From assembly GCA_008107755.1 (NCBI GenBank), contig VIRH01000058.1, positions 434,001 through 498,000 of the forward strand: a stretch of DNA of 64,000 nucleotides, read 5' to 3'. The notes under the pieces were generated by a model. That model saw only the letters and a program-made list of their open reading frames with translations. It was not told where the DNA came from and made no database searches. Source of the DNA: Rhodobacterales bacterium (GTDB taxonomy: Bacteria; Pseudomonadota; Alphaproteobacteria; Rhizobiales; Stappiaceae). This document shows positions 47,704-52,933 of the stretch, piece after piece (positions within the stretch are counted from its first letter, which is position 1; the number at the start of each line of letters is the position of its first letter). A program made the position numbers and the translations under genes.

Positions 47704-48980
<1,277 letters not shown>

Positions 48981-48984
<4 letters not shown>

Positions 48985-49928
48985 CCAAGCATGTTTCCCC
49001 TGTTCCCCAGGATCAGACCTTCAGGGCGGAGGTCCTGTCAGGCCTCAAGGCCGACCGAAAGTTCCTGTCCAGCAAGTGGCTCTACGATGATGTCGGCTCG
49101 CATCTGTTCGAGGCGATCACGGAACTGGATGCCTATTATCCAACGCGGACCGAGTTCACGATCCTGAAAGAGAACGCGCGCCAATATGCCCGTCTGCCGG
49201 GCGCGAGAGGCGCGATGGTGGAGCTTGGAAGTGGCTCCAGCCGCAAGACGGACCTGCTTCTGGGCACGTTTCAGGACCTCTCGGTCTACATGCCCGTCGA
49301 CATCTCCGCCAATCATCTCAAAGAGGCCGGCGAGCGTGTCAGGCGTGCGTATCCCTCTCTCGCCGTGATACCGGTGACAGCGGATTTCACCCAGCCGCTC
49401 GGCAACTTGCCTCTGCTGCCGGAACTGCCCGTCCTGGTCTTCTTTCCCGGCTCCACAATCGGCAATTTCGAGCGGTCCGAGGCAGCGGCACTGCTGCAGA
49501 GAATTCGCGATGCAATGCCGGGCGCCAGCATGATTGTCGGGGTCGACCGACCAAAAAGCGAGGACATCCTCGTCACCGCCTATGACGATCCGGCCGGCAT
49601 CACGGCTGCTTTCAATCAGAACCTGCTCCAGCGGATCAACCGCGAGCTTGGTGCTTCGATCGATCTTCAGAGCTTCACCCACAAGGCGATCTGGAACGCG
49701 GCCGAAAGCCGGGTGGAGATGCATCTGGTTTCATTGAAAGACCAGGACGTCGAGATCGGCGGCGAGACCATTTCGTTCCGGCAGGACGAGACGATCCACA
49801 CGGAGAACTCGCACAAATACGACGAGAAGGCCTTCGCCGAGATTGCGGATGAAGGGGGGTGGAGAATTCTGGGTCAGGACACCGACAAGGACGGTCTCTT
49901 TTCCGTCTATACGCTTCAGGCCGTTTGA
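48981..49928 (+). CDS. egtD: L-histidine N-alpha-methyltransferase EgtD
   Basis: 315 residues from ATG 48981, whose last bases form the TGA of egtB (ATGA). Adds three methyl groups to histidine to give hercynine, the first step of ergothioneine synthesis. Motifs: FEAITELDAYYPTRTEFTIL (substrate lid), VELGSGSSRKTDLLL (SAM-binding motif I), VYMPVDISANHL, PGSTIGNF and ENSHKY near the C-terminus, which form the histidine pocket. The frame continues upstream to 48417, but that is antisense-like reading inside egtB. Confidence 0.95.
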
Positions 49929-49941
49929 GCCGCGCAGCCGG

Positions 49942-50568
49942 CTATCGCTCGATCACCGCAAGTCGCACCGCGAGGCCCAGGAAAACCATTCCCGCGATGC
50001 GATTGAGCCAGATCTGTATGGTCGGTGATCGTTTCATCACCTCCCCCAGCTCCCCGGCAGCGAGAGCAACGGCGCCAAAGACGATCACGGTCGCCAGGAT
50101 GAAGAGACCGCCGAGCATCAAGATCTGCAAGGGCACGGAGCCGCGAGCCGGGTCCGCGAATTGCGGCAAGAGCGCCAGGAAAAAGATCGCAACCTTGGGA
50201 TTCGTCACATTCATGATGATCCCCCGCCGATAGAGGGCGAACGCGCCCAGCCTCTCCTGTCGCCGCGACACCATATCTGCCCGCCCTGCACGGAACGACT
50301 GCACCGCGAGATAGACAAGAAAGGCCGCCCCGGCAAACTTCAGCAGCGTGAAGGCGATCTCCGATGTCTTGAAGATGGCCGCTATACCCAGCGCGACGGC
50401 AATTGTGTGCACCAAAAGGCCCGTGCACAGGCCAAGCGTGACGAGGAGACCTGCCACCTTGCCATGGAGGGCCGACTGCGTCAGCACGAAGAGGTTGTCC
50501 GGGCCGGGAGCAGCGCCCAGCGCCAAGGCAGTCATGAAGAAAAGCGTCAGAACGTCGGTCGGTATCAC
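49942..50568 (-). CDS. LysE-family amino-acid exporter (RhtB-like)
   Basis: 208 residues from GTG 50568, the length usual for LysE/RhtB proteins; the frame continues back to 50709 without membrane character. Five to six helices and the family motif ALGAAPGPDNLFVLTQS near the N-terminus and GIIMNVTNPKVAIFFLALLPQF in the middle. Exports an amino acid or homoserine lactone-like compound. Convergent with egtD, and its ribosome site is not strong. Substrate unknown. Confidence 0.85.
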   Translation of the reverse strand: MIPTDVLTLFFMTALALGAAPGPDNLFVLTQSALHGKVAGLLVTLGLCTGLLVHTIAVALGIAAIFKTSEIAFTLLKFAGAAFLVYLAVQSFRAGRADMVSRRQERLGAFALYRRGIIMNVTNPKVAIFFLALLPQFADPARGSVPLQILMLGGLFILATVIVFGAVALAAGELGEVMKRSPTIQIWLNRIAGMVFLGLAVRLAVIER

Positions 50569-50683
50569 GGCGGGCAGATCTTTCGGAGCGGGAGCCAAAC
50601 AACAGCTGCCGCAGACTTTAGATGGATTTGCGCCGGCCGCGAAAGGCCTGCGTTCCAGATGCCATAGACGCGCGGTCGTTCCC

Positions 50684-51583
50684 TCACCCGGTTTCACCGA
50701 TGCCTGCAAGAAGAACAGACTTCAGCCGGCGCGCCTGGGATCCCAGCGGTCTGGCGTCGGGCCAGGCCAGATAGTAACCGTGCCCGGTTTCCAGACCAGG
50801 GGCGTTGATCGGCACAAGACGCCCCGTCGCGATTTCCTCTTGCAGAAGCGGAGGTGTGCCCAGCGCGATCCCCTGCCCTTTCAATGCCCTGCCGATCGTC
50901 TGGTTATAGCTGGCACAGGGTGAAACGGGCCAATTCCTGAACTCAATCGCCCCCGTTCGCTGGATCCAGCCCGGCCAATCCATCCAGTTGGGAGCGACAC
51001 GGGTATAGTTCAGCAAGGGGGGCAACACGGCACCAGAGCCCTGCTCCATGGCCTCGGCGACCGCCGGAGAAGCAACCGGCACCACGGTTTCGGAAAACAG
51101 TAGTTCGGATGACCAGCCGGAATACCTGCCGTCACCGTGGACCAGCACCAGATCATGCTCCGTTTTCAGAAGCTCCCCCAGATCATCGGCGGTCGTCAGA
51201 TTGAAGAGGCAAGCCTCGTCCGACAGAGCAAAATCGCGGAGCCTCGGCTGCAGCCAGAAGGTTGCAAGGCTTGAAACGCTGGCGATCCGGATCACAGGAT
51301 CCTCCGGAACTTTCACGTCCCGCAGGGACTGGTCGAGAAAATCGAGGGCCATGGACGTTCTGTCCGCAAGATGCTGCCCTGCATCTGTCGGCACCAGACG
51401 CCTTCCGGCGCGTTCGAAAAGCGGTAATCCAAGCCAGGTCTCTAACTGGCGGATACGCTTGCTGACGGCTGCCTGGGTCACGTAAAGCTCATCCGCCGCC
51501 TCTGTGAAACTCAGATGCCGCATGGCGGCTTCGAAGAAGACCAATGTGTCCAGCGGCGGCAGGTTCTTGCGGAGGCTTTTCAT
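50684..51583 (-). CDS. LysR-family transcriptional regulator (GcvA-like)
   Basis: 299 residues. N-terminal winged helix (about 8-66: LDTLVFFEAAMRHLSFTEAA, VTQAAVSKRIRQLETWLG) and a C-terminal periplasmic-binding-like effector domain. It resembles the GcvA group. It is divergent from the M24 (DddP-like) gene, whose start lies 93 bp from its own, the normal layout for a LysR regulator and its target. It lies 115 bp before the LysE gene on the same strand, so LysE could also belong to its regulon. Confidence 0.92.
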   Translation of the reverse strand: MKSLRKNLPPLDTLVFFEAAMRHLSFTEAADELYVTQAAVSKRIRQLETWLGLPLFERAGRRLVPTDAGQHLADRTSMALDFLDQSLRDVKVPEDPVIRIASVSSLATFWLQPRLRDFALSDEACLFNLTTADDLGELLKTEHDLVLVHGDGRYSGWSSELLFSETVVPVASPAVAEAMEQGSGAVLPPLLNYTRVAPNWMDWPGWIQRTGAIEFRNWPVSPCASYNQTIGRALKGQGIALGTPPLLQEEIATGRLVPINAPGLETGHGYYLAWPDARPLGSQARRLKSVLLAGIGETG

Positions 51584-51676
51584 AACCTGAGGTTATCAAA
51601 AGCACCTACTTTTTCCAGCCTTTTCAGATTCCGCCAAAATGAGATCATGCGCTCCTGCTCAAATGGAGATCTGCAG

Positions 51677-52933
51677 ATGGCGGAACTGGACTGGCATGCG
51701 GAACGCAGCGACCTCAACGGGCTTGCGCAGCTCGACCGCGAACCGGACGACACGGGTATCGATCTCAGGGCGGTGCGGCTCTATCGTCAGTCCCGTGTCC
51801 GCCGGATGATGCTGGACTACGGCGTTGACGCAGTGATCCTGTCCGACCCCGTGAACATCCGCTACGCGACCGGAACCCGGAACATGCAGGTGTTCTCCAT
51901 GCGCAATGCCGCCTCCCGTTATCTGGTGCTGACGGCGGACCGGTCGATCCTGTTCGAGTTCACGGGCGCGCTGCACCTTGGCGAAGGATTCGAGACGGTC
52001 GATGAAGTCAGACCGGCGAAGACGGCCAGCTTTGTCGCCGCCGGCCCGGACATTGCGCGGCGCGAGCGGGACTGGGCGCTGGAGATGAACGCGCTGATCC
52101 GCGAGCTAGTCGGCAAGGACGCGACCGTCGGGCTGGAGCGGCTCAACGCAGGCACCGCAATTGCGCTTGCCGAGACCGGCCTCAGGATCGTTGATGCACA
52201 GCAGCCCGTGGAAATGGCGCGGGCGATCAAGTCTCCGGAGGAAATGAAGTGCGTGATCGCCTCGCTGCGCGCCACTGAGATCGGCGTCGGCAAGCTTCGC
52301 GAAGCCATTCGTCCGGGCCTGACGGAGGCCGAACTCTGGTCGGTGCTCTACAAGTCGATCATCGAGCAGAACGGCGACTATATCGAAACCCGTCTCCTGA
52401 ACGCGGGGGCCAGAACCAACCCCTGGTACCAGGAAACGTCGGACGCCGTCATCGGCGAGAACGAACTCATCGCGCTCGACACCGATGTGGTCGGCTGCCA
52501 CGGATATTACGCGGATTTCTCAAGAACCTTTCACTCCGGCCCGGCTCGCCCCGACCAGCAGCAGCGCGATCTCTACAAGGTCGCTTTCGAGCAGGTGCAC
52601 CACAACATGGACGTGCTGCGGCCAGGCATGTCCTTCAGGGACTATGCCGATGCCGCATGGGACATTCCCGAGAAATACCACGCCCATCGCTACTATCTCT
52701 CCGCCCACGGATGCGGCATGACCGGGGAATATCCCTATCTCTACCACAGCGGCGATTTCCCCGAGGCCGGGTACGACGGGATGATAGAGCCAGGCATGAC
52801 CCTTTGCGTGGAGAGCTTCATTGGCGAAGCTGGCGGCAAGGAAGGCGTGAAGCTGGAACAGCAGGTCCTTGTCACCGACACGGGAACAGAGTTGCTGTCA
52901 CGCTTCCCGTTCGAGGATGCGCTTCTTGCCTGA
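51677..52933 (+). CDS. M24-family (creatinase-fold) metalloprotein, DddP-like
   Basis: 418 residues from ATG 51677, with GGAG eight bases upstream. All six metal ligands of the DMSP lyase DddP can be read: D268 and D270 in LDTDVVG, D280 in YADFSRT, H344 in LSAHGCG, E379 in CVES and E394 in VKLEQQ; as I recall the DddP numbering (D295, D297, D307, H371, E406, E421), the offset is 27 at each. The context NIRYATGTRNMQ and ETRLLNAGARTNPW is also DddP-like. Yet the Asp proposed as catalytic base (D377) would be G350 here, and the aromatic after NMQ is F rather than W. So it may be a DddP relative with another substrate, or an Xaa-Pro-type dipeptidase. Confidence 0.85.
   Translation: MAELDWHAERSDLNGLAQLDREPDDTGIDLRAVRLYRQSRVRRMMLDYGVDAVILSDPVNIRYATGTRNMQVFSMRNAASRYLVLTADRSILFEFTGALHLGEGFETVDEVRPAKTASFVAAGPDIARRERDWALEMNALIRELVGKDATVGLERLNAGTAIALAETGLRIVDAQQPVEMARAIKSPEEMKCVIASLRATEIGVGKLREAIRPGLTEAELWSVLYKSIIEQNGDYIETRLLNAGARTNPWYQETSDAVIGENELIALDTDVVGCHGYYADFSRTFHSGPARPDQQQRDLYKVAFEQVHHNMDVLRPGMSFRDYADAAWDIPEKYHAHRYYLSAHGCGMTGEYPYLYHSGDFPEAGYDGMIEPGMTLCVESFIGEAGGKEGVKLEQQVLVTDTGTELLSRFPFEDALLA

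Follow-up and report, generated by a model that had tools for sequence, protein, structure and literature searches.

DddP is reported to outnumber every other DMSP lyase gene in the oceans, making up about 65% of the ddd genes in the Tara data set (PMC10686828). In the mechanism described for this enzyme, metal binds the carboxylate of DMSP, a Trp and a Tyr hold the sulfur, and an Asp takes the proton (PMC5395565). The metal ligands are D295, D297, D307, H371, E406, and E421; Asp377 is favored as the base with Tyr366 as the alternate, and both residues are reported as invariant in DddP (PMC4108388). The assignment of Asp377 as the base is a structural proposal.

Active-site residues of a DddP-like M24 protein

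The window, that is, the whole 64-kb stretch of DNA analyzed here, comes from a 6.1-Mb genome whose same-genus relatives are Roseibium/Labrenzia. It encodes a DddP-like protein with the following features.

51677 to 52933, plus strand: M24-fold, DddP-like protein of 418 amino acids (ORF translation), with Creatinase_N and Peptidase_M24 domains
52478 to 52858, plus strand: stretch with the six metal ligands D268, D270, D280, H344, E379, and E394 (gap-free alignment with DddP)
52724 to 52726, plus strand: codon of Gly350, at the site of DddP Asp377, the proposed base (DddP alignments)
51893 to 51895, plus strand: codon of Phe73, at the site of DddP Trp95 (alignments)
51902 to 51904, plus strand: codon of Arg76, at the site of DddP His98, which pairs with Gly at 377
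52691 to 52747, plus strand: clade signature Y339 to H357, YYLSAHGCGMTGEYPYLYH, near-invariant in two clade alignments

Both domains score above their Pfam cut-offs (PF00557, 107 bits against 23; PF01321, 33 bits), and the PF00557 score together with the matching fold places the protein in the M24/pita-bread superfamily. The DddP structures 4s01, 4rzy, 4s00, and 4b28 are the top phmmer matches among PDB chains (E about 1e-65), and Foldseek likewise ranks DddP structures best, with a TM score of 0.85 and about 32% identity, followed by prolidases as the next structural matches (PDB identity about 20%).

The initial annotation had read the six metal ligands as aligning with those of DddP at a constant offset of 27 residues without gaps, and both phmmer and the alignment bear this out for the catalytic domain: D268, D270, D280, H344, E379, and E394 correspond to D295, D297, D307, H371, E406, and E421. 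The same offset had been extended to the aromatic residue after the NMQ motif, where the substitution stands (F73 in the window protein versus W95 in DddP) but the numbering does not, as the two domains are separated by additional residues in DddP and the offset in the N-terminal domain is therefore 22. Gly in place of the DddP Asp, also claimed at that stage, is confirmed: G occupies position 350 in 36 of 36 tight-clade rows aligned, and D is found in the rows that combine Asp377 with His98 (the Asp/His type). The register of Asp377 and G350 is fixed by structure 4s01, a D377N mutant that carries N at this site. Restoration of the base by another alignment was rejected, since the phmmer and MAFFT alignments with DddP all keep Gly at 377 and offer no nearby Asp. 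Glu351 is common to DddP (Glu378) and is therefore not a replacement base.

Other active-site residues are shared. The equivalent of DddP Tyr366 is present as Y339, and Y339, W250, and E351 are common to the Asp/His rows (equivalents of DddP Tyr366, Trp277, and Glu378). The columns that split the two types are, for the window protein and DddP respectively, G350/D377, R76/H98, Y278/C305, Y235/W262, and I228/N255. Loop 348 to 351 has a pLDDT under 50 in the AlphaFold model of the window protein, so no atomic argument on active-site geometry is drawn.

Distribution and phylogeny of the Gly/Arg branch

Among 173 M24 rows, 117 carry Gly377 with Arg98 (DddP numbering) and 46 carry Asp377 with His98, the combination of verified DddP. 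Exceptions to this pairing are a DddP-like paralogue of Caballeronia cordobensis (L195), which combines Asp377 with Arg98, and a DddP-like M24 protein (L208; L214:6747-7940, minus strand), which has Val at the Asp377 site together with His and is encoded beside a choline-dehydrogenase-like gene.

Close orthologues with 72 to 85% identity occur in about two dozen of 87 family genomes. Of 230 pattern matches in GTDB genomes, 228 proved to encode relatives, 80 of which (70 to 84% identical) were kept. The tight clade, with 62 to 85% identity to the window protein, has hosts as diverse as Roseibium, roseobacters, rhizobia, Kiloniella, Granulosicoccus, Zobellella, Pseudomonas, Caballeronia, and Streptomyces. 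Gly350, Arg76, and Phe73 are kept in every tight-clade member aligned, and the presence of Gly350 and Phe73 in 36/36 members means that the change is well beyond chance and not the oddity of a single protein. Zobellella has a second tight-clade copy (L198; G471:C1:839245-840065), apparently broken and lying in pieces, one of them with an in-frame TGA.

In a tree computed without the trait columns (quick search, SH-aLRT support), the window clade is recovered with 99% support within a Gly/Arg clade with 96% support, and DddP falls in a separate Asp/His clade with 100% support. The AU test rejects a topology that unites the window clade with only DddP (p-AU 1.7e-9) but does not reject one with all Gly types in a single clade (p-AU 0.53). 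These supports and AU tests indicate that Gly is the norm across a large branch and not a loss inside DddP; the Gly/Arg pairing may stem from one ancestral change. The suggestion of a divergent branch is thus upheld by a tight, taxonomically wide clade that is separate from verified DddP, and the window protein does not group with peptidases, a placement raised earlier as a possible objection. The window gene is a member of a widespread, uncharacterized, DddP-related branch without the DddP base. To our knowledge, no activity has been assigned to a protein of the Gly/Arg branch.

The divergent LysR gene and betaine-linked neighborhoods

Two features lie upstream of the M24 gene.

50684 to 51583, minus strand: divergent LysR-type regulator, similar to GcvA and the choline-sulfate regulator (NF008352, 188 bits; TIGR03418, 170 bits; both below cut-off)
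51582 to 51596, plus strand: LysR-type box ATAACCTGAGGTTAT, adjoining the LysR start codon, about 80 bp 5' of the M24 start

In 42 of 79 relatives, a LysR homologue directly precedes the M24 gene in divergent orientation. The ATAAC-N5-GTTAT box between the LysR and M24 genes is the sole exact match in the window, and with at most 2 mismatches it is found at 43/43 loci with LysR versus 1/38 loci without; shuffled sequence matches at that level in about 6% of trials. As the box consensus was drawn from the very loci in which it was counted, the evidence lies in the difference between the two groups and not in the count itself. The box also touches the start codon of LysR, which could account for some of its conservation. 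The retained linkage and an operator-like box confined almost wholly to LysR loci support the early proposal of regulation by the divergent LysR gene, whose product would control the M24 gene via the intergenic box. Directly downstream of the LysR gene is a LysE/RhtB-type amino acid exporter gene (49942-50709, minus strand).

In Roseibium and many roseobacters, the M24 gene stands alone with its LysR gene. Unrelated neighbors, including cell wall genes, a retron, a carbamoyltransferase, and pntAB, are found in most genomes, Roseibium among them, and in a Granulosicoccus metagenome-assembled genome (MAG) the M24 gene is followed by one for a retron-type reverse transcriptase (L101:11516-12799, plus strand). 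Upstream of the M24 gene in the window, a full ergothioneine pair (47704-49928; EgtB, 554 bits, and EgtD, 360 bits, both above NCBIfam cut-offs) was considered as a functional link and rejected; other Roseibium loci lack this pair next to their M24 gene, so the two genes are taken as chance neighbors.

Genes related to betaine recur at other loci of the clade. An MttB gene upstream and an FAD/GcvT (DAO-GcvT) demethylase gene downstream flank the M24 gene in Oricola, Ahrensia, Mesorhizobium, and a Rhizobiaceae MAG; OpuAC binding proteins are encoded next door in Pseudomonas, Caballeronia, Sinorhizobium, and Loktanella, and a BCCT transporter in Zobellella. MttB-family proteins act in aerobic glycine betaine demethylation in roseobacters (PMC12478193). 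Two MttB genes are present elsewhere in the window's genome. Betaine-type genes (MttB, binding proteins, BCCT, FAD/GcvT) make up 19/265 of the adjacent versus 4/847 of the distant genes (odds ratio, 16; P = 3e-9, uncorrected for relatedness; the value overstates independence because several of the loci come from related organisms). Of the 67 scored tight-clade loci, only a minority (about 20) lie near a betaine or peptide-transport gene of the kinds tested, and the window locus does not. A paralogue in Shinella lies in a cluster with MttB, a betaine ABC transporter, and sarcosine oxidase. A Zobellella-family genome carries an apparent operon of a GbcA-like oxygenase, an Asp/His DddP-like M24 protein, BCCT, and Rid with a GcvA-like LysR (L215:6308-11048, plus strand), apparently an uncharacterized betaine cluster.

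Candidate reactions and comparison with known M24 enzymes

The reading we favor, with a probability of roughly 55%, is that the window gene encodes a dinuclear-metal, non-peptidase enzyme of the Gly377/Arg98 M24 branch, controlled by LysR, that degrades a solute of betaine-like type (quaternary ammonium or N-methylated). That the branch acts on a substrate other than DMSP had been suggested by the initial annotation; the neighboring genes for uptake and demethylation of betaines and quaternary amines and the altered active-site set are consistent with it, if indirectly. Judging from residues and gene context, such an enzyme of betaine or quaternary-amine breakdown would probably be a hydrolase. 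The two metals would hold the substrate and activate water, and the conserved aromatics W250, Y339, and F73 would hold the cationic end. Residues of the N-terminal loop of creatinase bind its substrate, and Arg76, in a loop near the one carrying them, may bind the carboxylate. Hydrolysis by metal-bound water would be preferred over a DddP-type beta-elimination because the site has no Asp base and shares with creatinase a Tyr at position 278, where DddP has Cys305; this choice of hydrolase over lyase is drawn from residue identity alone and is the weakest step.

A second possibility, which we consider doubtful, is a betaine lyase, in which the dinuclear metal would bind the carboxylate, Tyr339 would serve as the base, and beta-elimination would release an amine (e.g., trimethylamine) to be processed by MttB and demethylases. 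Y339 is kept in nearly all rows, its DddP counterpart Tyr366 has been named as the alternate base (PMC4108388), and MttB-family neighbors are found at several loci, but many neighbors are uptake proteins compatible with any betaine enzyme, and Y278 and R76 make the site less like that of DddP.

Lysis of DMSP (or DMSOP) by the window protein despite the absent Asp is unlikely. In its favor, the protein has the DddP fold and metal ligands and a marine host, and the role of the missing residue is itself a proposal. DddP2 of O. doudoroffii is a divergent but working DMSP lyase (PMC10989825), and L208, the Zobellella-family M24 protein with Val at 377, is a possible DddP2 candidate; if L208 is DddP2, then Asp377 is dispensable and its absence would not rule out DMSP lysis. 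The Zobellella-family genomes searched for DddP2 candidates yielded proteins with Asp or Val at 377, none of them inside the window's clade. The score against the NCBIfam DddP model points the other way: the window protein reaches 290.5 bits (E = 2e-86) against a cut-off of 600, whereas a DddP from a Roseibium relative reaches 699 bits and DddP1-like proteins from Zobellella's family about 633. Of the features that mark DddP, it has the six ligands and the Tyr366 equivalent and lacks Asp377, Trp95, the 600-bit score, and the placement in the tree; its separate clade also extends to Streptomyces, Pseudomonas, and Caballeronia. Moreover, the search of the genome for another DMSP lyase found one homologue, a cupin DMSP-lyase-family protein (PF16867, 127.7 bits versus 27; L186, G000:C142:39329-39799), which has no NCBIfam model match. 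Given this homologue, DMSP lysis can be accounted for without the window gene. Because the base is missing and genes of betaine uptake and demethylation often adjoin the branch, the protein probably acts on a betaine-like compound, and its gene should be left out of DMSP lyase counts.

An ordinary M24 Xaa-Pro peptidase is very unlikely. The Pfam Peptidase_M24 domain and the rank of prolidases as next structural matches would suit one, but the protein has HGxGMTGEYP in place of HGxGxxxHE, a motif intact in the 28% identical paralogue L002 of the same genome; the catalytic His of Pyrococcus furiosus prolidase (1pv9) aligns with Y251, and PDB identity is about 20% compared to 32% for DddP. An inactive or decaying DddP copy, which the absent catalytic base might suggest, is scarcely credible given full-length ORFs, ligands and surrounding residues kept across phyla at 62 to 85% identity, and a conserved regulator box.

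The preferred reading of a betaine-degrading enzyme bears on how DddP is counted. Surveys often count DddP homologues by an E-value or a 40% identity threshold. A protein without the base matches the DddP model at the E-value given above, and loose counts could therefore take in enzymes of other pathways; positions 377 and 98 plus the 600-bit cut-off separate the Gly/Arg branch from DddP. More tentatively, and at somewhat less than even odds, the whole DddP-like M24 assemblage could be a betaine-processing family in which DMSP lyase is one branch and the Gly377/Arg98 branch, switched by a LysR of its own, catalyzes an undescribed reaction in which a quaternary-ammonium or N-methylated solute is hydrolyzed or undergoes elimination. 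The betaine-linked neighborhoods offer a concrete substrate class and could explain the evolutionary origin of DddP.

Among known systems, ectoine hydrolase DoeA (6twk) is also an M24 enzyme acting on a compatible solute, but the similarity is weak, with about 20% identity and 47 bits for the window protein versus a cut-off of 575. Xaa-Pro dipeptidase and aminopeptidase P share the pita-bread fold and dinuclear metal site, while their HGxGxxxHE motif and catalytic His are missing from the window protein. Creatinase (1chm) offers a precedent for an M24 fold without a peptidase role: its GYY corresponds to G276-Y-Y of the window protein, and it has a Phe and an Arg in the N-terminal loop, near F73 and R76. 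A direct equation of F73/R76 with creatinase F62/R64 failed, as the profile alignment matches the loops as a whole but not their individual residues, and the metal ligands of the window protein are not conserved in creatinase; the match is a distant profile match (97.5%) at 25% identity, with no creatinase model among the NCBIfam hits of the window protein. Uncharacterized Asp/His-type DddP-like paralogues of Proteobacteria (e.g., L149, L155, and L199) are 40 to 47% identical, have the same ligands, and also adjoin MttB, DAO-GcvT, GbcA-like, or BCCT genes, but they retain Asp377 and His98. DddP itself (RlDddP, 4rzy; RdDddP, 4b28) shares the M24 fold, the six ligands at one offset, the equivalents of Tyr366, Trp277, and Glu378, and about 32% identity; the window protein differs from it in Gly350/Asp377, Phe73/Trp95, Arg76/His98, Tyr278/Cys305, and Tyr235/Trp262, in its separate clade, and in its score below the cut-off.
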